From Archangium violaceum (GTDB taxonomy: Bacteria > Myxococcota > Myxococcia > Myxococcales > Myxococcaceae), in contig NZ_CP069338.1 of NCBI RefSeq assembly GCF_016859125.1, positions 7,193,501-7,257,500 on the forward strand: a stretch of 64,000 nt of DNA. The letters are read 5' to 3'. This document shows, piece after piece, positions 2,437 to 57,483 of the stretch. A program made the translations under genes and the position numbers. Below the pieces are notes generated by a model. It worked only from the letters and a program-made list of their open reading frames with translations. It was not told the DNA's origin and did no database searches. Numbering within the stretch: the first letter of the stretch is position 1; each line of letters starts with the position of its first letter.

Positions 2437-4608
2437 ATGAAGAAGACGCTCCTGTTCCTGTCGCTCATGGCTGCCCCGGCGCTGGCTGGGGAGGGGAAGT
2501 GGACCCCCCAGCAGGTCCTCGAACTCGATCCGGCGTGGCTGAAGGCCCAGGGTCTCCAGGTGTCTCCCAGGAAGCTGTGGGATCCCAAGCGGGGCACGGG
2601 CCTGTTGGCGGGCGCGGTGAACGTGGGTGGTTGCTCGGGGGCCTTCATCTCCGAGTCGGGCCTGGTCATCACCAACCACCACTGTGCCTTCTCCATCATC
2701 CAGGAGCACAGCTCGCCGCAGCGCGATCTCATCACCCAGGGCTTCCTCGCCAAGGGCCGTGAGGAGGAGCTGCCGGGCAAGGGCGCGCGCGTCCAGGTTC
2801 CGCGCAGCTTCACGGACGTGACGAAGGAGATGTTCGCGGCGGTGCCGGCGGGCGCGGATGATCTCGCGCGGCAGAAGGCGATGGAGCGCAAGGAGAAGGA
2901 GCTGGTCGCCGAGTGCGAGCAGCGCCCGGCCACGCGTTGCAAGGTGGCGAGCTTCGACGGCGGGCTGCAGTTCGTGCTGATCGACTCGGTGGAGCTGGCG
3001 GACGTGCGGCTGGTGTACGCGCCGCCGCGCGCGGTGGGTGAGTACGGCGGCGAGGAGGACAACTGGATGTGGCCGCGCCACACCGGTGACTTCGCCATCC
3101 TCCGGGCCTACACGGCTCCGGACGGCTCGGCGGCGCAGTTCAGCGCGCGGAACGTGCCCTACAAGGCCGAGTTCTTCTTCCCGCTGGCCACCCAGGGCGT
3201 GAAGCCGGACGACTTCGTGATGGTGCTGGGCTACCCCGGCATCACCTTCCGCGCGCTGCTCGCGGACGACATGGCCGAGCGCCAGACGCGCTACTACCCG
3301 CGCGTCGTCGACGTCTACGGCGAGCTCATCCGCATCCTCGAGGAGGAGGGGGAGAAGGATCCGGCGGGGAAGATCGCCGTGGCCTCGAGCCTCAAGGGCC
3401 TGCACAACCGCTACAAGAACGCGGGCGGGCAGCTCGCGGGGCTCAAGCGCGGACACATCGTGGAGAAGCAGCGCGAGGCCGAGGCGGCGGTGGTGGCCTG
3501 GGCGGAGAAGCGCAAGGAGTACGCGGGCGCGCTGAAGGCCCGCGCGGAGCTGCTCTCCCTGCAGGCGGAGAAGGGGAAGGGCTTCGAGCGCGAGTTCCTG
3601 CTCGACGTGCTGAAGGGGGGGTCGAAGGGGCCGGCCCTGGCGGTGACGCTGGCGCGGCTGGCGCGGGAGCGGGCGAAGCCGGACCTCGAGCGCGAGCCCG
3701 AGTACATGGACCGTGAGCTGCCCCGGTTGAAGGACCGGCTCGAGCGCGAGCAGAAGAACTTCTTCGCTCCGGCGGACAAGCGGGCCCTCCTCGCGCTGGT
3801 GCGGCGGGCGCAGGCGCTCGGCGCGGGCGAGCGCATCGCGGCGATCGACAAGCACTTCGGCCGCACGTACGCGGAGAAGGAGGTGTCCGCGAAGATCGAC
3901 GCCCTGTACGCCGGCTCGAAGGTGCTGGATCTGGCGGAGCGGCAGAAGATGTCCGGCGAGACGGAGGCGCAGCTCCGGGCGCGGAAGGATCCGCTGCTGG
4001 AGCTGGGCTTCGATCTGGCGACCGAGATGGTGGCGCTGGACGAGCTGAGGGACCGCCGCCTGGGCGCGAACGTGCGGCTGATGCCCGAGTGGCGCAAGGC
4101 GGTGCTGGCGCACGCGGGCAAGCCGGTGGCGCCGGACGCCAACGGCACGCTGCGGGTGACGTTCGCGAAGGTGAAGGGCTACTCGCCTCGGGACGGGGCC
4201 TTCTACACGCCGCAGACGACGCTGGCGGGCGTGATGGAGAAGCACACGGGCCAGGAGCCCTTCAACGTCCCGGAGAAGGTGGCCGCCGCGGCCAACGCGA
4301 AGCGGTACGGGCCCTGGATGGACAAGCGGCTGAAGGACGTGCCGGTGAACTTCCTGGCGGACGCGGACACCACGGGTGGCAACTCGGGCAGCCCCACGGT
4401 GAACGGCAAGGGGCAGCTGGTGGGCGTCAATTTCGACCGCGTGTGGGAGAACGTGGCCAATGACTTCGGCTACAACCCGGATGTGGCGCGCAACGTGAAC
4501 GTGGATGTGCGCTACGTGCTGTGGTTGTTGGATCAGGTCGAGGACGCCGACGGGCTGCTGCGTGAGCTGGGCGTCCGCAAGGGGCCCAAGGCCCAGGAGC
4601 GCCGCTGA
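2437..4608 (+). CDS. S46 family dipeptidyl peptidase (DPP7/DPP11 type)
   Basis: A 723-residue exported serine exopeptidase; the family releases dipeptides from polypeptide N-termini in the periplasm. The signal peptide is MKKTLLFLSLMAAPALA. The chymotrypsin-like triad is visible: His in TNHHC (81/82), Asp218 in HTGDF, and Ser650 in GGNSGSP. The helical domain unique to S46 fills the middle. Arg668, in VNFDR, lies 18 residues after the catalytic Ser, the spacing of Ser655/Arg673 in Porphyromonas DPP11, where that Arg selects Asp or Glu at P1; DPP7 has Gly there. Length (about 700-720) is typical. Start is ATG with AAGGGG upstream. It overlaps the next gene by one base. Confidence 0.92.
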   Translation: MKKTLLFLSLMAAPALAGEGKWTPQQVLELDPAWLKAQGLQVSPRKLWDPKRGTGLLAGAVNVGGCSGAFISESGLVITNHHCAFSIIQEHSSPQRDLITQGFLAKGREEELPGKGARVQVPRSFTDVTKEMFAAVPAGADDLARQKAMERKEKELVAECEQRPATRCKVASFDGGLQFVLIDSVELADVRLVYAPPRAVGEYGGEEDNWMWPRHTGDFAILRAYTAPDGSAAQFSARNVPYKAEFFFPLATQGVKPDDFVMVLGYPGITFRALLADDMAERQTRYYPRVVDVYGELIRILEEEGEKDPAGKIAVASSLKGLHNRYKNAGGQLAGLKRGHIVEKQREAEAAVVAWAEKRKEYAGALKARAELLSLQAEKGKGFEREFLLDVLKGGSKGPALAVTLARLARERAKPDLEREPEYMDRELPRLKDRLEREQKNFFAPADKRALLALVRRAQALGAGERIAAIDKHFGRTYAEKEVSAKIDALYAGSKVLDLAERQKMSGETEAQLRARKDPLLELGFDLATEMVALDELRDRRLGANVRLMPEWRKAVLAHAGKPVAPDANGTLRVTFAKVKGYSPRDGAFYTPQTTLAGVMEKHTGQEPFNVPEKVAAAANAKRYGPWMDKRLKDVPVNFLADADTTGGNSGSPTVNGKGQLVGVNFDRVWENVANDFGYNPDVARNVNVDVRYVLWLLDQVEDADGLLRELGVRKGPKAQERR

Positions 4609-5273
4609 TGTCGGAGAGTGCCGGGAGCGGGCAACCTCCCCTGCCGGTCTTCGGACCGGAGGAGAAGGTGTGCGGCAACTGCAAGCTGTGGGCGGCTCAC
4701 TCGGTGGATCACCGCGGCTGGGTGGGCGTGTGCCGGTTGCAGCCGGAGCGGGGGCTGTTTCCGCCCTCGGCACCTCTCTGCAACAAGTTCCTGCGGCGCG
4801 GGGTGGCCGCGAAGGTGGCCGAGGAGACGGCGCGGCGCGAGCGGTCGGTGCGCGGCGTGGGGCCGGTGGTGCGGCGGCGGGAGCGGGATCCGAACGAAGT
4901 GGTGGACCTGGAAGGGCTGGAGCTGAACATGACGCGCGCGGAGTTGATGGAGCTGATCCGGGAGGCGGTGGGCGAGGGCGGTGAGGCCCCGCTGGCCAAC
5001 AAGTGGGAGGGCGGCACCCTCAAGCTGGTGCCCGGCAAACCGGACGTGCAGGGGAAGGACATCCCCATCGACACCTTCTTCCACAAGATCGTCATGGTCC
5101 GGGACAAGCTTCGGGTGATGGAGCAGAAGCTCAACGCTCACCCGAAGCTGTCGGACGCCGAGAAGGTGGAGATGCAGAGCTACATCACCCGCATCTACGG
5201 CTCACTGACGAGCTTCAACCTCCTGTTCCGCGACAAGGAGGACTTCTTCGTGGGCTCCAAGTCGGAGGACTGA
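4608..5273 (+). CDS. Four-cysteine protein of unknown function
   Basis: A 221-residue protein, probably cytoplasmic, with no signal peptide or membrane segment. The N-terminal part has a Cys-x2-Cys-x19-Cys-x16-Cys arrangement (CGNC at about 22-25, later CRLQ and CNKF), which could hold a zinc or an iron-sulfur centre. The C-terminal half is charged and helical (around FFHKIVMVRDKLRVMEQKL), as in small myxobacterial proteins of no known role. Its start codon overlaps the stop of the S46 peptidase gene (TGATG), so the two are translationally coupled. No function is claimed. Confidence 0.75.
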   Translation: MSESAGSGQPPLPVFGPEEKVCGNCKLWAAHSVDHRGWVGVCRLQPERGLFPPSAPLCNKFLRRGVAAKVAEETARRERSVRGVGPVVRRRERDPNEVVDLEGLELNMTRAELMELIREAVGEGGEAPLANKWEGGTLKLVPGKPDVQGKDIPIDTFFHKIVMVRDKLRVMEQKLNAHPKLSDAEKVEMQSYITRIYGSLTSFNLLFRDKEDFFVGSKSED

Positions 5274-7535: not shown

Positions 7536-7673
7536 CGAGCACTCCCTGTGAAGTCGCGGGACACTCCTAACCCGTGGAGTATCCGACACGCAACTCCCGG
7601 AACTGATTTTCAGGGTAGAGTCCCTCTGCCCGACCCGGAGAGTAGCGTTCCCAGGGGGAGGGGGGCTGATGCT

Positions 7674-7694
7674 CCCTCTCCCGAAGGGAGAGGG
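7674..7694. repeat. Dispersed palindromic repeat, copy 2
   Basis: CCCTCTCCC, loop GAA, GGGAGAGGG: a perfect 9-base stem with the same arms as the copies near 35.2 and 46.2 kb. It lies 56 bases beyond the gspN stop, before the FHA activator gene, so it may end or trim the gsp transcript. Confidence 0.75.
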
Positions 7695-7749
7695 GAAGGT
7701 GCCGCGAGTCAGTCTCGGAGGCCCCTTTCGTGGTCCTGGCTGGAGGGGA

Positions 7750-8751
7750 TCAACGCAACTGCGGTTGCTGCTGCTGCTGGCGGGCGGGGCCGAAGTTGGG
7801 GCGGTTGAAGAAGCCGCCCAGGTGCGCCACGCGGAACTTCGGGTCGGTCTTGTCCGCGGGCAGGATGGACAGGCCCGCGCCCAGCAGGCCCAGCCGCTTC
7901 ACGAACTCCGGCTCGGCGCGCAGCTTGAAGTCCATGTCCGGCTGGCTCACGTCCAGCCGCTGACCCAACTTCACGGTGCCCGAGCCCTGGACCTCCAGGT
8001 CCTCGCTCTTGGCCTGCAACGCCTCCACGGTGCCCAGCCCCTTCTCGATCTTGATGCGCGCGTCGATGTCACCCAGCGCGATCCTCGGCAGGTCCATTGG
8101 CGTGGGCTGGCCGTACATGGGCACGGTGATGTTGCCGCCCTGGATGAGCAGCCCCTTCGTGTCCAGCGAGAGCTGGCCGTTGGCCTGGCTCAGGTCGGGC
8201 TGGCCGCGGGTCTTCGGGAGGGTGAGGTCGAGCGAGCCGTTCAGCTTGCCCGCCAGGTCCATTCCGCTGAAGCCCTTGAGGTTGCCCGCGGAGGGATCCA
8301 GGTCCGACAGCTTCACCGCCACCTTCACATCGCCCAGCCCGCCGACGTTGCCGCTGAGCGAACCGTTCATCAGGTTCGCGTGGAAGGCCAGGCCCGGGGG
8401 CAGCAGCGAGGGACGCACCGCCACCGAGTCGATGTTGAGCGGCTCTCCCATTTCCTCGGGGCCGGGGAGCATGCCCGTGTTGCTGGCCAGCATGCCGTGC
8501 AGCTCGGGCGTCATCCCGTTGGGCACCTTGCTGAGGCGCACGTTGGTGGCCGTCAGCCCGCGCAGCCCCGGCCGCAGCGAGCCGATGCGCAGCGCGTACC
8601 CCGCGTCCGCCGCCGCGTCCACGGCGCGCCGCCGCAGCGTGTCGTACGGGAAGGTGAGGAACAGGCACAACACGAAGGCCACGAGCGAGAACGCACCGTA
8701 GCCAACGACGAGCTTCCAGCGGGCGATCTTGGTTTCCGCGGCCATGGTCAT
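7750..8751 (-). CDS. gspN: Type II secretion protein GspN
   Basis: A 333-residue inner-membrane-anchored periplasmic protein. One N-terminal membrane helix ([21 protein letters not shown]) is followed by a long beta-rich region typical of GspN/AsmA-like proteins (repeated L-x-G-x-L-x-G patterns such as [15 protein letters not shown] and [11 protein letters not shown]). GspN occurs in only some type II systems and its exact job is not settled. ATG 8751 is chosen because it overlaps the gspM stop as ATGA. It is the last gene of the gsp operon. The C-terminus is Gln-rich (RQQQQQPQ). Confidence 0.85.
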
Positions 8752-9305
8752 TGCTTCATCTTGTAGGTGGAGACGGTCGTCCACGCCGTCAGGGTTTCCG
8801 TGGCGTCGCGCGGCTCGAGGCGCAGGCTCTTCACCTTCACCACGCCCGGTCCGCTCTCCACCATGGTCAGGAAGTCATGCAGCTTGCGCAGGTCCACGTC
8901 GGTGAACGTCAGCTCCACCGAGCTCTCGACGATCTGCCCGTCGCCGATGCCCACGTCGTTCTTGGGCGTCATGTTGGGCACGGTCAGCCCCGCCTGGGTG
9001 GCCTTCTCCTCGACGTAGCTCATCAGCCTCACGTCGCTGCCGGTGAGCTGCTGCTCCACCATCTGCCGCTGCTGGGCGGCCTCGCGGTAGCTGGCCGCCA
9101 GCGCCTGCACCTCGCGCAGCTTCGCCAGCTTCTGGTCCGTGCGCTTGCGGTAGTTGCTCGCGCTGTTGGAGAAGGAGAAGAGGATGACGAAGAGCACGAA
9201 GGCCAGCACCGCGCCTCCGGTCCCCAGCACCATCTGGCGCTCGCGGGTGGTCAGCCGGTCGAACCAGGCTCGCGCGTCGTTGAGGAGTCCTCGAAGCTTT
9301 TCCAT
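8748..9305 (-). CDS. gspM: Type II secretion protein GspM
   Basis: A 185-residue bitopic inner-membrane protein of the assembly platform, which partners GspL. The cytoplasmic N-terminus (RAWFDRLTTRERQMVL) is the usual GspM lead-in, followed by one membrane helix (GGAVLAFVLFVILFSF), a coiled-coil stretch (KLAKLREVQALAASYREAAQQ) and a ferredoxin-like periplasmic domain. It begins three bases after the gspL stop and its own stop overlaps gspN, so it is tightly coupled in the operon. Confidence 0.88.
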   Translation of the reverse strand: MEKLRGLLNDARAWFDRLTTRERQMVLGTGGAVLAFVLFVILFSFSNSASNYRKRTDQKLAKLREVQALAASYREAAQQRQMVEQQLTGSDVRLMSYVEEKATQAGLTVPNMTPKNDVGIGDGQIVESSVELTFTDVDLRKLHDFLTMVESGPGVVKVKSLRLEPRDATETLTAWTTVSTYKMKQ

Positions 9306-9308
9306 GTC

Positions 9309-10907
9309 CTAGCCCTCCCCGCCTTGCGGCTGCTCGGGGCACTGCACCTGTATGTCCAGGCGGAACGAGACCTTGTTGCCATCCCGCGTCTTCTCCACCT
9401 TGCCCTCCTTCACTTCCTTGAAGCAGCGGTGGCCCTTGATCGCCGAGGCGATGGTGTCGATCTGCTTGGAGCTGTCCGTGAGGCCTCGCACGCTGATGCG
9501 CTCAAGGTCGATGTCGATACGGTCGAACGTCACCGGAACGTCCGCCGGCACCCGCTGCGTCATCTCCGCCAGCAGGTTGACGGCCGACAGCTTCGGCAGC
9601 GCCGCGGCCGGGCTCTCCACGCCCTTGAGGCGGTTGAGCGCGATGTCGTAGTTCTTCTCGCACGAGCCGAGGATGCGCTGGGTGACGTCGCACAGCACGG
9701 CGTCCACCTGGGCTTCGCGGCGCGCCAGCACGGAGTTGCGCACCACGCCGCTGGCGATCAGCAGCAGGAGGAGGGTGGCGGCGAACGAGGCCAGCAACCC
9801 CACCTTGTCCTTCACGTAGTCGTAGTCACCCTTGAAGGCGAACTCGCCCCGGCGCAGGTTGAAGCGCGGCGCCTTGGCGCCCGAGGCCTGGCCGCGCAGC
9901 GCGAGCGAATACGCCTGCATCGCCAGCGGCTGCTCCGAGGCGGACACCGCGCCGGAGGACTCCGGCGGCAGCGCCAGCACGCGCGCGGGAACCCCGAGGT
10001 CCTTGCTCAGCTGCTCGGCGATGCCCGGCATGCGCGCGGTGCCACCGCACAGCAGCACGGCGCCCACCTGCCGGCGGGTCCGCGCGGTGAAGGCCTTGAA
10101 GGACGGACGCAGCTCGCGCAGCACCGGCTGCAGGCCGCGCACGAAGGCCGCCGCGGCGCGCTCCCCATCCGGCCCCTGGGCCTGGGCCTCGCTCGCCAGC
10201 GCTCCGTGCGCCTCCTTCCAGTGGTGCGCTTCCGGCAGTGGCGTCTGGAACTCGGTGGCCAGCGCGCGGCTGAGGCCCAGTCCACCACCGGAGAAGGTAC
10301 GCGCGAACTCCACGCCCATCCCCGGGCGGCCAATGGCCACCGTCGTGCGCTCGTGGCCGATGTCCACGATGGCCACCGCCTCCGCGTCCAGGCCCGCGAA
10401 GAGGCCAGGCTGCTGCATCAGCAGGTTCTGGTAGGTGATGCCCGGGTGCGTCACCACGCGCGGGTCCACTCCCGCCTCGTTCAGCATCTCGAGCAGCGTG
10501 GTCAGCTCCTCGCGGCGCACCACGCCCACCAGCAGCTCGCTGCCCTTGTCCTTCACCTGCGTGGCCACCTGGTAGTCGAAGACGGCGTCGCCCAGGTCGA
10601 AGGGAATCTGGCTCTCCACCTCGAAGGGGATGGTGGCCTCGATGCGCTTGGGATCGGTGAAGGGCAGGGCGAGCTGGTGCGTGGCCAGCGACGGGCCGGG
10701 CAGCGCCACCACCACCTGATCGGCGTGCTGCAGCTCCGGGCGCGCCAGCAGCTCGCGCAGCGCCGCGCGCAGCGTCTCCTGACGGTCACCCTCGGGGGCG
10801 CGGCGCACCTCGGCCCAACCCTTCACGGCCGAGTTTCGCGTGGTTGCATCGAGCAGCAACCCCTTCACGGAGTGGCTGCCCAGGTCCAGACCAAGAATCC
10901 GGGCCAT
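9309..10907 (-). CDS. gspL: Type II secretion protein GspL (PilM-like actin fold)
   Basis: A 532-residue inner-membrane protein linking the GspE ATPase to the periplasmic platform. The cytoplasmic half is an actin-like PilM/GspL domain opening with ILGLDLGSHSVKGL; later glycine-rich loops (VDIGHERTTVAIG, LLCGGTARMPG) form the nucleotide-fold phosphate motifs. A membrane helix (VGLLASFAATLLLLLIASGVV, about residue 370) leads to a ferredoxin-like periplasmic domain. It is longer than the classic enterobacterial GspL (about 400), mainly in the actin-like half. It starts 3 bases after gspK stops. Confidence 0.9.
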   Translation of the reverse strand: MARILGLDLGSHSVKGLLLDATTRNSAVKGWAEVRRAPEGDRQETLRAALRELLARPELQHADQVVVALPGPSLATHQLALPFTDPKRIEATIPFEVESQIPFDLGDAVFDYQVATQVKDKGSELLVGVVRREELTTLLEMLNEAGVDPRVVTHPGITYQNLLMQQPGLFAGLDAEAVAIVDIGHERTTVAIGRPGMGVEFARTFSGGGLGLSRALATEFQTPLPEAHHWKEAHGALASEAQAQGPDGERAAAAFVRGLQPVLRELRPSFKAFTARTRRQVGAVLLCGGTARMPGIAEQLSKDLGVPARVLALPPESSGAVSASEQPLAMQAYSLALRGQASGAKAPRFNLRRGEFAFKGDYDYVKDKVGLLASFAATLLLLLIASGVVRNSVLARREAQVDAVLCDVTQRILGSCEKNYDIALNRLKGVESPAAALPKLSAVNLLAEMTQRVPADVPVTFDRIDIDLERISVRGLTDSSKQIDTIASAIKGHRCFKEVKEGKVEKTRDGNKVSFRLDIQVQCPEQPQGGEG

Positions 10908-52247: not shown

Positions 52248-53276
52248 ATGGCCACCAAGCTCGTCACCATTGCGTTCGACGTGATGGGGAGCGATCACGG
52301 CCCCGCGGAAGTCGTCAGGGGGGCCGCGCAGCTCTCGTTGGAGTCTCCTCACATCCACGTGTTGCTGGTGGGGGATAGAGCCCTCATCGACGACGCGCTC
52401 GCCGAGACGCGGCACAACGGCGAGCGCATCTCGGTGCAGCATGCCTCCGAGTTCGTCGCCATGGACGAGAAGCCGGCCGAGGCGTTGGCGCGCAAGCACG
52501 ACGCGTCCGTGTCGGTGGCGGCGCGGCTCGTGGCCGAGGGCGAGGCGGATGCGCTCGTGTCCGCCGGTAACACGGGCGCGGGCGTGCTGTCCTGCGCCCG
52601 GCACTTCCAGCTGCTGCCGGGCGTGCGGCGCGCGGCGCTCGCGGCGGTGTACCCCACGCGGGCCCGTCACGGCGACAAGGCGGACCCGTTCTCGCTCATC
52701 CTCGACGTGGGCGCCACGGTGGAGGCCACCGCGGAGGACCTGGTGACGTTCGCGGTGATGGGGGCGGCCTACGCGCGCATCATCTCGCGCAACGAGAACC
52801 CCAAGGTGGCGCTGCTGTCCAACGGCACCGAGTCCACCAAGGGCCCGCGTCACGTGGTGGAGGCGCACTCGAGGCTCGCGGCGCTCTCCGGGCTGCAGTT
52901 CATCGGGAACGTGGAGGGCGTGGACATCCCCAAGGGCACGGCGGACGTGGTGGTGACGGACGGCTTCGTCGGTAACGTCTGTCTGAAGATGCTGGAAGGC
53001 GTGCACGAGACGGTGGTGGAGCTGGCCCAGTACGCGTACAAGGAGAGCCTGCGCTGGCGGGCCGGACTGGCCATGCTGTCCGGTGGCATCCAGCGCATCA
53101 AGGACATCACCGATTGGGAGCAGTACGGGGGTGCACCGGTGCTCGGGTTCGATCGGATCTTCATCAAGGCCCATGGCCGTTCGAAGGCACAAGCCATCGC
53201 CAACGCCGGCAAGGTGGCCGCCAAGGCGGTGGCCCATGAGCTCGGCACGGCCATCCAGCAGGGTCTGGCGCGGTGA
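52248..53276 (+). CDS. plsX: Phosphate acyltransferase PlsX
   Basis: 342 residues. PlsX turns acyl-ACP and phosphate into acyl-phosphate at the start of phospholipid synthesis. FDVMGSDHGPAEVVRG is the family opening; SAGNTGAGVLSCA, DVGAT and ADVVVTDGFVGNV are further conserved segments. The gene starts 26 bases after the T-run of the terminator. fabH, a common neighbour, is absent; a DUF2183 gene overlaps its stop as GTGA. Confidence 0.95.
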   Translation: MATKLVTIAFDVMGSDHGPAEVVRGAAQLSLESPHIHVLLVGDRALIDDALAETRHNGERISVQHASEFVAMDEKPAEALARKHDASVSVAARLVAEGEADALVSAGNTGAGVLSCARHFQLLPGVRRAALAAVYPTRARHGDKADPFSLILDVGATVEATAEDLVTFAVMGAAYARIISRNENPKVALLSNGTESTKGPRHVVEAHSRLAALSGLQFIGNVEGVDIPKGTADVVVTDGFVGNVCLKMLEGVHETVVELAQYAYKESLRWRAGLAMLSGGIQRIKDITDWEQYGGAPVLGFDRIFIKAHGRSKAQAIANAGKVAAKAVAHELGTAIQQGLAR

Positions 53277-54310
53277 GCCTTCCGGATCGCATCGACCCCA
53301 GGCCCCCGCGCCGCATCTACCGCTGGGACCTGGACAAGACGTACCTGCAGACGGAGTTCGACTCGCTGCGGGATCTGCTGCGCACGGCCTTCCAGAAGGC
53401 CCACGAGAAGCAGGCCGTGCCGGGGGCATCCGCGCTCATCCGCGAGTTGGCGGAGAACGGGGACTCGCGCCTGTGCATCGTCTCCGGAAGCCCCAAGCAG
53501 ATGCGCTCGGTGCTGGAGGAGAAGCTCAAGCTGGACGGCGTGGTGTGGGACGAGTTCGTCCTCAAGGACAACGTGGGCAACCTGATGCGCGGGCGCTTCC
53601 GCGCCCTGCGCGGGCAGGTCGGCTACAAGCTGCCCGCCATCCTGGAGAGCCGCGCCAACGCGCCCGTGGAGGCCGAGGAGGTTCTCTTCGGGGATGACGC
53701 CGAGGCGGACGCCTTCATCTACTCGCTCTTCGCGGACATGGTCGCCGGGCGCGTGGACGAGCGGGTGCTCACGCAGATCCTCGAGGCGGCGGCGGTGTAC
53801 CCGGACGAGGCCGAGCGGGTGCTCGCCGCGTGGAAGAAGATTCCCGTGTCGGATCCGGTGCGGCGCATCTTCATCCACCTGGATCGGCTGACGCCGCCGG
53901 CGCACTTCGCCAACTACGGCCCGCGCGTGGTGCCCATCTTCAACTACTTCCAGGCCGCGCTGGTGCTGCTCGCAGATGGCCACCTGACGGCCCCGCAGGT
54001 CATCAAGATCGCGGTGGAGATGGTGCAGACGGCGGGACACAACATCATCACGCTGTCCAACTCGTTCCAGGACCTGCTGCGCCGGGGCCTGCCGCTGCAG
54101 CAGGCGGCGGCGGCGCTGGTGCAGGCGCTGGAGGGGCCCAACGCGCTCATGCAGGCGCTGCGGCCGATGCCGGACATCATCTCGGCGTTCACCAAGCGGC
54201 TCGCCGCGCTGGGGACTCCGCCGCCTCCGCCGCCGGTGCAGGCGGTGGACTACCTGGAGCTCATCCACCACGCGCTTCCGCGGACGCACAAGGCGCGGAA
54301 GACGCAGTAG
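53273..54310 (+). CDS. DUF2183 (App1-like) phosphatase
   Basis: 345 residues. The HAD-like DxDxT motif is DLDKTYL near the N-terminus; SGSPKQM and FGDDAEADAF follow as motifs II-IV. Yeast App1 with this domain removes phosphate from phosphatidic acid, so a lipid phosphatase role is plausible and fits its coupling to plsX (GTG start overlapping the plsX stop). The C-terminal 130 residues are helical, with a Pro run (TPPPPPPVQ). Substrate is inferred. Confidence 0.8.
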   Translation: MSLPDRIDPRPPRRIYRWDLDKTYLQTEFDSLRDLLRTAFQKAHEKQAVPGASALIRELAENGDSRLCIVSGSPKQMRSVLEEKLKLDGVVWDEFVLKDNVGNLMRGRFRALRGQVGYKLPAILESRANAPVEAEEVLFGDDAEADAFIYSLFADMVAGRVDERVLTQILEAAAVYPDEAERVLAAWKKIPVSDPVRRIFIHLDRLTPPAHFANYGPRVVPIFNYFQAALVLLADGHLTAPQVIKIAVEMVQTAGHNIITLSNSFQDLLRRGLPLQQAAAALVQALEGPNALMQALRPMPDIISAFTKRLAALGTPPPPPPVQAVDYLELIHHALPRTHKARKTQ

Positions 54311-55371: not shown

Positions 55372-56046
55372 ATGTCAATCCATGCCGTAATTTTCGACCG
55401 CGACGGTGTGCTGACGTATTTTGATTTCGCGCCGGCGTTGGAACTCTTTCGTGACTTGCCTCGGATTCCATTCGAGGCGGTGCGCCAGCACTGGTTCTCG
55501 TGGTGCCGCGTTACCGGAACCCCGCGCACCGTGGAGGCCGAGCGCCAGTTCCTCGCGGGCTTCTGGGATGAGCTCTGTGACGAGTGGTCCCTGGATGCGG
55601 GGGTGCGCGAGCGGTTCCACCGGTTCGATTACACGCGGACGATCCGTGCCTTCTCGGACGCCCGACCCACGCTGCTCGCCGTGCGCGAGCGGGGCCTCCG
55701 GGTCGGGGTCCTCTCCAATTTCCCCATGGCCAGCATCGAGGCATCACTGACGGCCGCGGGGCTGGGCGACCTGGTCGACGTGACGTGTGCGGCGCCCGTC
55801 ATCGGGGCGTCCAAGCCGGAACCCGCGGCCTACCTCCATGCCCTGGCGGCCCTGGGCGTCTCCGCGGACGAGTGCCTGCTGGTCGATGACGAGGAGGCCT
55901 GTGTCGAGGGCGCGCGGGCCGTGGGCATCCGCGCGTTCCTCCTGGATCGCGCGGCATCTGGTCGCGGAGGAGGAGCGGCCACGCTTGGCGGCCTGGAAGC
56001 GCTCTCCCCGATGCTGGACATGCGCCTTCATGAGGGGACGCCATGA
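55372..56046 (+). CDS. HAD-family phosphatase
   Basis: 224 residues. The HAD motif I is FDRDGVLT (nucleophile Asp and acid Asp), with motif II in LSNFP, motif III Lys in GASKPEP and motif IV LLVDDEEACVEGA. The cap is a small helical insert (subfamily IA). HAD enzymes hydrolyse small phosphate esters. ATG 55372 is taken with GGTGGGGAC in front; GTG 55348 is an in-frame alternative inside the inverted repeat. The gene overlaps the isoprenoid gene by ATGA, so the two products likely work together. Confidence 0.88.
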   Translation: MSIHAVIFDRDGVLTYFDFAPALELFRDLPRIPFEAVRQHWFSWCRVTGTPRTVEAERQFLAGFWDELCDEWSLDAGVRERFHRFDYTRTIRAFSDARPTLLAVRERGLRVGVLSNFPMASIEASLTAAGLGDLVDVTCAAPVIGASKPEPAAYLHALAALGVSADECLLVDDEEACVEGARAVGIRAFLLDRAASGRGGGAATLGGLEALSPMLDMRLHEGTP

Positions 56047-57152
56047 TTCACGAGGCCGTTGTCCCCCCTTCCTCCGGGCAGCCCGTCCTCTTCCCGGGGA
56101 AGTTCCAGGGCATCTTCTCGCGGGTGCGCTCGCGTTATGCCCCGCTGTTGGAGGAGGCCCGGGCGACCCTGCGCGCCCTGCCGGTCCCGTCCGCGGTCCG
56201 CGAGTTCTACACCTACGGAGTCCTGGAGCATGCGCAGCCATCGTTCATGCTGCTGCCGTTGATGTACCTCATCATGGCGGAGCACGCGGGTGGCATCACT
56301 CCCCGGCATCGCCGCTACCTGCCGTGGTACATGCTCGCGATGGAGCTGGTGGCCGTCCTCGATGACACCGTGGATCACACACCCTTCCGCTCGGGCCGGA
56401 TGACGTACCCCCGGCGGTTCGGCGAGTCCTCCGCGGCCTCCTTCTCCGGCTTCCTGATGAGCACCCTCTTCCGGAAGACCGCCGAGACGGAGCCGGTGCT
56501 GCTGCCACTCGTGGCGGACCTGTTCGAGCAGCTCTGCGCGCTGCAGACCTGGGAAAACCACTCCCGCTATCCCGAGACCTCGCCGGAGGTGCTTGCCCGC
56601 TGGCTCCAGTACCACTACGACGCGGTGGCTCCCGCGATCGCGCAGGCGTTCAACGGGGCGCTGGCGCTCCATGGCCGCGAGCCCATTCCTCGCGAGGTGT
56701 GCACCCGTTTCGGGGACCTCATGCAGGACGTGGACGACATCGTGAACTTCCTGGAGAAGCGTGAGGCGGACGGGGAGAACGACGATTTGAAGATGGGGAT
56801 CGTCACCCAGATGCTGCTGGCCACGGTCCGCGCGGACGGTTCGGCACGGGAGGCCCTGGAGGCGCTGTGGAGCCCCTATCGGGCGCTGCCCCTGGTCTCC
56901 CAGGAGGAGTTCTCGGTGGGCCTGGAGCACTGCCACCAGCGGACCCGGGCCGAGTACCAACGGATGGCGGAGTTGCTTCGGCGCCAGGGTCTGCCGGTCG
57001 CTCTGCGGAAGGTGCTCGCGGACGCGGAGGCTTGCGTCGAGGCCACTCCCGCTCCGCTGCGGCCGTGCATGCGTGACATGGTCCAGGCGTTCGTCAACCG
57101 ACTGCACTTCTTCGGACTGCCGGGCCACATGCCCACGCCTCGCTTGGAATGA
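56043..57152 (+). CDS. Divergent isoprenoid synthase-fold protein
   Basis: 369 residues, all helical. The first Asp-rich motif is DDTVD in VAVLDDTVDHTPF, and the second is DLMQDVDDIVNF with GENDDLKMGIVT behind, which align with the two Asp motifs and the DLxxGKxT end of polyprenyl synthases. The isopentenyl-diphosphate motif GKRxRP is absent (AGGITPRHRR occupies the place), so chain elongation is doubtful and terpene cyclisation or head-to-head chemistry is possible. It is coupled to a HAD phosphatase. No signal peptide or membrane helix. Confidence 0.8.
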   Translation: MIHEAVVPPSSGQPVLFPGKFQGIFSRVRSRYAPLLEEARATLRALPVPSAVREFYTYGVLEHAQPSFMLLPLMYLIMAEHAGGITPRHRRYLPWYMLAMELVAVLDDTVDHTPFRSGRMTYPRRFGESSAASFSGFLMSTLFRKTAETEPVLLPLVADLFEQLCALQTWENHSRYPETSPEVLARWLQYHYDAVAPAIAQAFNGALALHGREPIPREVCTRFGDLMQDVDDIVNFLEKREADGENDDLKMGIVTQMLLATVRADGSAREALEALWSPYRALPLVSQEEFSVGLEHCHQRTRAEYQRMAELLRRQGLPVALRKVLADAEACVEATPAPLRPCMRDMVQAFVNRLHFFGLPGHMPTPRLE

Positions 57153-57175: not shown

Positions 57176-57483
57176 ATGAAGCGTATCGAGGGACCTCTGA
57201 CGGCCACGGTGCTCCTGGGTCTGGTCTCGGCGTGTGAATCGCCGTTCGAGTCCCTGGAGCTCTGCTCTGCTCGAGGCGATTCCACGGGGCGTGTCCACGT
57301 CTCGTGCTTTGCCCACCAGGACGATACCGGTCGCATCGACGAGTTCGTCTCCTTCTCACAAACTTCCGCTCGGGCGAGACCTCCCTGACGGAGAGCGCCA
57401 CGTTGCGCCAGCTCCTCTCCGACAAGGACATGCAGTGGACGGCGGACTGGAGCTACGGCGAGGCGTTGCACTTCACCCGGTAG
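57176..57483 (+). pseudogene. Frameshifted lipoprotein gene
   Basis: ATG 57176 begins a lipoprotein signal (MKRIEGPLTATVLLGLVSAC) and runs in frame for about 60 codons, with GC-ending codons up to about 57355. After that the frame has A/T-ending codons and stops at 57388. In the -1 frame from 57358 the sequence TNFRSGETSLTESATLRQ continues to TAG 57483 with almost all codons ending in G or C. One missing base near 57353-57358 explains this. The intact product would be about 102 residues. It could be a real mutation or a sequencing error; programmed frameshifting is unlikely since no slippery run is visible. Confidence 0.7.

Follow-up and report, generated by a model that had tools for sequence, protein, structure and literature searches.

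The window analysed here, a 64,000-nucleotide stretch of the Archangium violaceum genome, carries two adjoining genes, one for a HAD-IA phosphatase and one for a protein with a trans-prenyl-synthase fold, named PPS below (Table 1). The two genes have four bases, ATGA, in common, so that their start and stop positions bear out the overlap reported in the preliminary description. The HAD protein matches PF00702 in Pfam (E 8.7e-21) and the NCBIfam HAD-IA v3 model (53.7 bits, cut-off 29.4). PPS matches PF00348, polyprenyl_synt, with an E value of 2.4e-11 (43.8 bits, Pfam cut-off 27), the weakest of the five PF00348 matches in the single-contig, 12.68-Mb host genome, and its sequence matches to solved prenyl synthases are weak (best 6.9e-06, 4lob). 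The structure prediction proposed in the preliminary description was run with AlphaFold2 on 10 family members and gave a model with a mean pLDDT of 88. The model aligns to the solanesyl diphosphate synthase 9jqs with a Z score of 28.1 over 304 residues, an rmsd of 2.9 and 17% identity, and this match to trans-prenyl diphosphate synthases indicates that the fold is not due to chance. A random overlap of two open reading frames is ruled out by the Pfam matches and the structure.

Table 1. Features of the HAD-PPS gene pair, with window positions and conservation among the 22 PPS family members
Feature	Residues	Position	Strand	Details
HAD-IA phosphatase gene		55372..56046	+	224 aa; ATG at 55372, stop TGA 56044-56046
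Trans-prenyl-synthase-fold (PPS) gene		56043..57152	+	369 aa; ATG at 56043, stop 57150-57152; without IPP-site motif
ATGA start/stop overlap of HAD and PPS genes		56043..56046	+	read from the sequence
FMLLP in place of KRxRP (IPP-binding motif)	68-72	56244..56258	+	K/R 0/22, P 22/22
First Asp-rich motif (FARM), DDTVD	107-111	56361..56375	+	D/D/D 22/22
R116-S117, 'RRG' of the FARM	116-117	56388..56393	+	first Arg kept (R 22/22), second = Ser (S 22/22)
QDVDDIVN, altered second Asp-rich motif (SARM), DDxxN	228-235	56724..56747	+	D231, D232 22/22
GENDD, family signature ahead of DLxxG loop	244-248	56772..56786	+	GE[NH]DD in 15/22

Two further features are seen near the pair. An APP1-type phosphatidate phosphatase gene (window 53273-54310), a second HAD-fold phosphatase, lies directly 3' of plsX, about 1 kb upstream of the pair, and a putative short reading frame with a lipoprotein-like start (57177-57389) follows 24 bases 3' of the PPS gene; a stretch translated there contained two stops. 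A search for plasmid spread of the family gave no match at E 1e-10.

The motifs of PPS were read from an alignment that holds 22 family members, with the window copy among them, and the four further PF00348 proteins encoded in the host genome; the 22 members include near-copies, three from one genus and six of Herpetosiphon type. At the exact position of GKRxRP the window protein reads SFMLLP. In the KRxRP columns the family conforms to [FY]-[MILV]-L-[LIV]-P, whereas the four other PF00348 proteins conform to [KR]-R-x-R-P, the basic motif being kept in all of them (GKRLRP, SKRIRP, GKRARP, and TRRLRP). The loss of GKRxRP noted in the preliminary description is therefore real: no member carries Lys or Arg at this site, and the motif does not turn up elsewhere in the protein. 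An ordinary prenyl synthase with a displaced GKRxRP is ruled out, as the motif occurs nowhere in any of the 22. The counter-case named in the preliminary description, an end-to-end alignment with a normal synthase that keeps GKRxRP, is found in its first half only: the alignment runs end to end and GKRxRP is not kept.

Both Asp-rich motifs had also been assigned to PPS. The FARM is indeed a full DDxxD in all 22 members; the SARM is DDxxN (D231, D232, and N235), its third position being Asn in ten members, Gly in ten, Ser in two and never Asp, a weak criterion given that the third Asp is also missing in two of the four other PF00348 proteins. The second Arg after the FARM, replaced in PPS, is presumably an IPP ligand. 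The lysines of KTG and GKxT are absent from 22/22 members; these losses are weak signs, the KTG lysine being missing as well in two and the GKxT lysine in three of the four other proteins. Compared with the trans-prenyl diphosphate synthases of PF00348, such as 9jqs, the family thus has the whole fold, the FARM and part of the SARM, but in 22/22 members lacks GKRxRP, the second FARM-side Arg and the third SARM Asp. D107, D108, D111, R116, Q228, D231, and D232 are invariant. Class I terpene synthases carry the NSE/DTE triad NDxxSxxxE, which was not seen on inspection of the alignment by eye; the helix reads VDDIVNFLEK (residues 230–239). The GE[NH]DD signature is carried by the 14 Myxococcota loci and by one Chloroflexota locus, L026. 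Because the Asp, Arg, and Gln residues are kept throughout and the basic residues lost, the allylic-diphosphate side of the site looks live and the extending-unit side looks to have turned neutral. The same genome also encodes a PF00348 protein (L004, C1:5163140-5163883) with RRLRP, a FARM reading DDVTE and a second motif devoid of Asp (RRELG), possibly another non-canonical or inactive relative of the prenyl synthases.

Whole-genome searches covered 195 genomes of the window's phylum and 400 Chloroflexota genomes. PPS was found in 9/195 at E 1e-8 or better, all of them in the window's own family, and also in eight of the Chloroflexota genomes drawn, a Herpetosiphonaceae record included. Two strict peptide patterns run against the GTDB contig collection returned this one Herpetosiphonaceae record and further MAGs labelled Myxococcales, Polyangiaceae, Byssovorax or Deltaproteobacteria. 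The 22 loci comprise 14 counted as Myxococcota, two of which are recorded only as Deltaproteobacteria, and eight Chloroflexota loci. Their neighbors, mapped by tblastn and open reading frame maps, fall into four arrangements. Four loci have HAD and PPS only: in the window, L023 and L024 the HAD gene comes first, and in L028 it lies about 540 bases downstream of PPS with an opposite-strand reading frame between. Six loci have the order LOG-PPS-HAD (L018, L020, L021, L022, L029, and L031), with LOG directly upstream of PPS and genes that mostly overlap or stand a few tens of bases apart. In four loci (L015, L016, L017, and L019), three of them from the window's genus, PPS and LOG form a single reading frame of 570 to 584 aa followed by a Ham1 gene. 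None of LOG, HAD, or Ham1 was found in the stretches read around PPS in 8/8 Chloroflexota loci, which is why the PPS family may have had an older role; seven of these eight genomes have a LOG, always away from PPS. The pairing on which the preliminary description relied is hence kept in 10/14 Myxococcota loci and was not found in the stretches read at the four fused and eight Chloroflexota ones. For the PPS-LOG fusion, AlphaFold2 modelling from three sequences gave a pLDDT of 54, and this poor model was set aside.

The window PPS is 47 and 45% identical to the MAG copies L023 and L024, versus 40 to 41% for the fused copies in its genus, and is therefore probably not their ortholog by descent. 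In a PPS tree drawn without three near-copies and one of the other PF00348 proteins, the fused (99/99), HAD-only (84/64), LOG-PPS-HAD (64/96), and Chloroflexota (41/68) members form groups, while the deep nodes are weak. In the Chloroflexota, a STAS-domain gene stands just upstream of PPS in L026 (6652-7680) and L076 (5270-6340), and a Pfam scan of one of the six Herpetosiphon-type loci, L078, places a STAS domain (4343-5158) two genes upstream; in L076, PPS is followed by two reading frames with a similar start (7667-8686 and 8796-9815).

LOG is a phosphoribohydrolase that frees cytokinin bases from nucleotides. A LOG with the PGGxGTxxE motif is joined to PPS in 10/14 Myxococcota loci, four times by fusion and six times as the upstream gene, and is not present in the window. 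The fusion L015 matches TIGR00730 with an E value of 7.1e-50, the Pfam LOG domain is recognized in fusions L015 and L019, and L015 and L018, the linked LOGs that were scanned, score 169 and 185 bits against TIGR00730 for a cut-off of 96. Because the same two fall below the cut-off of the NCBI cytokinin-LOG equivalog (130.4 and 136.8 versus 300 bits), adenine is not established as their base, and the linked LOGs may serve another one. In the window's family 68/76 genomes have a LOG. The window genome has a single one, unlinked and about 1.02 Mb from PPS; in the other eight PPS genomes of the family, the PPS-joined LOG is an extra copy beside another LOG. In a midpoint-rooted tree of 54 LOGs, the ten linked LOGs form one group (99/96) with none of the 44 others inside, these others being a sample made up mostly of the best LOG per genome and of ten chosen extra LOGs, several with long branches. 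An earlier tree of 44 rows concurs (99/94). The branch to the fused LOGs is long (1.92), which makes their exact place less sure. As the ten group together, the sequences indicate that the tie between LOG and PPS outlived the switch between operon and fusion.

A gene for a divergent Ham1-type pyrophosphatase lies within about 40 bases downstream of all four fused loci, the match overlapping the end of the fusion in three. The Ham1 alignment comprises the 6/15 loci that passed a motif filter, including two of the four PPS-linked copies. These two, encoded in the L017 and L019 genomes, have retained EDSGL and the SxNxxK start, but carry AWSxxWNVF and ARWQ in place of the GFGYDP and SHR of two housekeeping copies. 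We take the replaced stretches to be those with which ITP pyrophosphatases recognize the base, in which case the linked Ham1 would have a changed base pocket. The remaining two linked copies, outside the alignment, are 73 to 75% identical to that of L019. A third, divergent Ham1 copy is present in the three fused-type genomes of the window's genus (L126, L128, and L129); in the two of these copies that were aligned (L128 and L129), 'EHGA' stands in place of 'EDSG' or 'DDSG'.

The HAD partner adjoins PPS in 10/14 Myxococcota loci (four with HAD only and six LOG-PPS-HAD) and no copy was seen in the stretches flanking the four fused or the eight Chloroflexota loci. As read with an alignment of the ten PPS-linked HADs, the window HAD has its catalytic motifs (DRDG, SNF, SKPEP, and DDEEACVEGA). 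The nearest relatives of the window HAD among the 195 genomes are four operon copies (46–49% identity), then one unlinked copy in genome G063 (40%). Six genomes in this search score below E 1e-30, five with PPS adjacent and G063 as the exception, and the rest have E 1e-15 or weaker. In a tree of 18 rows, the ten linked HADs do not form one clean clade, as the unlinked L089 (from G063) and the long-branched L136 fall among them; 18 of 24 unlinked loci had been offered for this tree, ten of which, L135 among them, were dropped by the motif filter for want of a reading frame. All eight Chloroflexota PPS genomes have some HAD match, none within 10 kb of PPS. The solved relatives of the window HAD include YihX, which is not the best match.

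A second setting of this HAD family was found in L143 (872-5096), a Herpetosiphonaceae MAG contig where a STAS gene, a class II cyclase-like gene, a HAD relative, and a weakly Rv3378c-like gene follow one another. The cyclase-like protein has 520 aa, the motif DGDD and a match to 7xkx at E 1.8e-26; the HAD relative, frameshifted in the contig, is 42% identical to the window HAD; the Rv3378c-like gene has only a weak match, E 9e-4 over 71 residues, and gives no Pfam match. Rv3378c itself does not have a trans-prenyl-synthase fold. With its HAD relative lying between the class II cyclase-like and Rv3378c-like genes, the window HAD's family keeps terpene company here too, and the gene content makes L143 a possible terpenyl-nucleoside or terpene-alcohol locus.

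The predicted fold, the motif losses, the gene linkage, the fused reading frame, and the LOG grouping described above are the starting point for a tentative reading of PPS, which we place a little below an even chance: it would be a prenyltransferase that uses an allylic diphosphate as donor and loads a nucleotide or nucleobase, in place of IPP, as acceptor. In the scheme that we infer, including its acceptor, donor length, order of steps, and HAD substrate, PPS would ionise the allylic diphosphate at the two Asp motifs, with a nucleotide or base, probably an adenine nucleotide, occupying the former IPP seat. A Ham1-type pyrophosphatase or the HAD would then trim phosphate and LOG, in keeping with its known chemistry, would split the prenylated nucleoside monophosphate into base and ribose 5-phosphate. 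In the window, where HAD is the only partner, the predicted product would be a prenylated nucleoside, or a base should the one unlinked LOG of the genome contribute. We count for this reading the PPS-LOG fusion or linkage in 10/14 loci, the dedicated LOG group, the status of the linked LOG as an extra copy, Ham1 at 4/4 fused loci, the known IPT-LOG fusions (PMC8234997, PMC4092121), the terpene-adenosines produced by related myxobacteria (PMC7321100), the place of the L143 HAD relative between a class II cyclase-like and a weakly Rv3378c-like gene, and the fact that terpene cyclases can be made to prenylate aromatic acceptors (PMC7414894). Counted against it are the window PPS without an adjacent LOG, the Chloroflexota PPS without partners, the occurrence of the HAD family apart from PPS, the scores of the linked LOGs below the cytokinin-LOG equivalog cut-off, and the ability of HADs of the window's kind to serve terpenyl phosphates (PMC5024094).

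Several known systems resemble parts of this scheme. Adenylate IPT has a different, P-loop fold, and no Pfam match to an adenylate isopentenyltransferase domain was obtained in the window PPS, the window HAD, or the fusions L015 and L019. In Rhodococcus fascians A21d2 and Claviceps purpurea, a prenyltransferase domain is likewise fused to LOG, and these IPT-LOG fusions, by demonstration or prediction, turn a nucleotide and a prenyl diphosphate into free prenylated adenine (PMC8234997, PMC4092121); theirs is an adenylate IPT, whereas here the domain is of the trans-prenyl-synthase fold and acceptor and donor are predictions. The pathways of 1-tuberculosinyladenosine, in which Rv3378c transfers a terpenyl group to adenosine, and of sorangiadenosine also place a terpenyl group on adenosine (PMC7321100). 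According to the same source, Vitiosangium makes 2-hydroxysorangiadenosine, a Cystobacter strain is an alternative producer, and sora-like clusters occur in two Archangium strains, of which Archangium violaceum Cb vi76 is named. The products of sora8, sora9, and sora12, with 518, 333, and 509 aa (PMC7321100), differ in length from the PPS-LOG fusions. Strain Cb vi76 also carries a PPS-LOG fusion (L027). A HAD phosphatase stands alongside a terpene-type enzyme in the AstI/AstK system (PMC5024094) and in bacterial drimenol synthases (PMC9128629). The statement in the preliminary description that HAD phosphatases act on terpenyl diphosphates is sound, since AstI and AstK do so on drimanyl diphosphate; AstC, unlike PPS, has a class II motif instead of a prenyl-synthase fold, and the passages of PMC5024094 cited here mention no LOG. 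The target of the window HAD could be either a terpenyl phosphate, as for AstI/AstK, or a nucleotide 5'-phosphate.

The main rival, and still so for the HAD-only loci, is the one put forward in the preliminary description, in which PPS and HAD together make a small terpene alcohol from GPP, FPP or GGPP, with the HAD taking phosphate off a terpenyl (di)phosphate. A class I-type DDxxD enzyme normally expels diphosphate, leaving no terpenyl phosphate for a HAD; because PPS keeps this motif, and because the LOG (10/14 loci) and Ham1 (4/14) ties, which this account leaves unexplained, point to enzymes acting on nucleotides, we consider it rather unlikely. The linkage to HAD in 10/14 Myxococcota loci speaks for it, as does the HAD relative abutting a class II cyclase-like gene in L143, whose product would keep its diphosphate. 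So does the AstI/AstK precedent, AstK's closest homolog being named YihX-like (PMC5024094), a kinship shared by the window HAD; that precedent, however, relies on an enzyme with the class II motif.

PPS could instead be a prenyl-synthase-like terpene cyclase that yields a hydrocarbon or alcohol unaided, the Myxococcota partners acting on something else. The lost IPP site and the eight partnerless Chloroflexota members, where PPS perhaps acts by itself, fit this account, but the fused reading frame and the separate grouping of the linked LOGs favor a single pathway and the NSE motif was not seen, so that we hold it for unlikely. A non-catalytic or regulatory role, for instance as a subunit pairing with an ordinary prenyl synthase, is very improbable in our view: the third SARM Asp is indeed missing in 22/22 and the genome has four other PF00348 genes with which to pair, but the FARM, R116, Q228, and D231/D232 show no exception among the 22 members, and the HAD partner has retained its catalytic motifs.

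The prenyltransferase reading of PPS would, in its widest form, define a new prenyltransferase class, with a trans-prenyl-synthase fold in which IPP has given way to a nucleotide or base acceptor and which independently reached the logic of the IPT-LOG fusions. Terpenyl purines or nucleosides would be its products in predatory bacteria, and LOG, HAD, and a re-tuned Ham1 would be able to replace one another in the release step. We advance this generalization as a conjecture, somewhat short of probable. None of the fold, LOG, HAD, and Ham1 is new by itself; the novelty lies in their combination and in the lost IPP site, and among the matches listed in the open PMC literature no paper linking LOG or cytokinin with a polyprenyl synthase was found. 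Myxobacteria are known to make N-prenyl products for which some of the transferases are not known; in the case of sandacrabin, the N-farnesyl transferase was not pinpointed in the account given in PMC9306752. If the proposal is true, a further protein fold would be added to prenylated-nucleotide synthesis, a chain-elongating enzyme would have changed its acceptor through one basic motif gone hydrophobic, and the PPS loci would offer a genetic handle on the terpene-nucleoside chemistry of myxobacteria.
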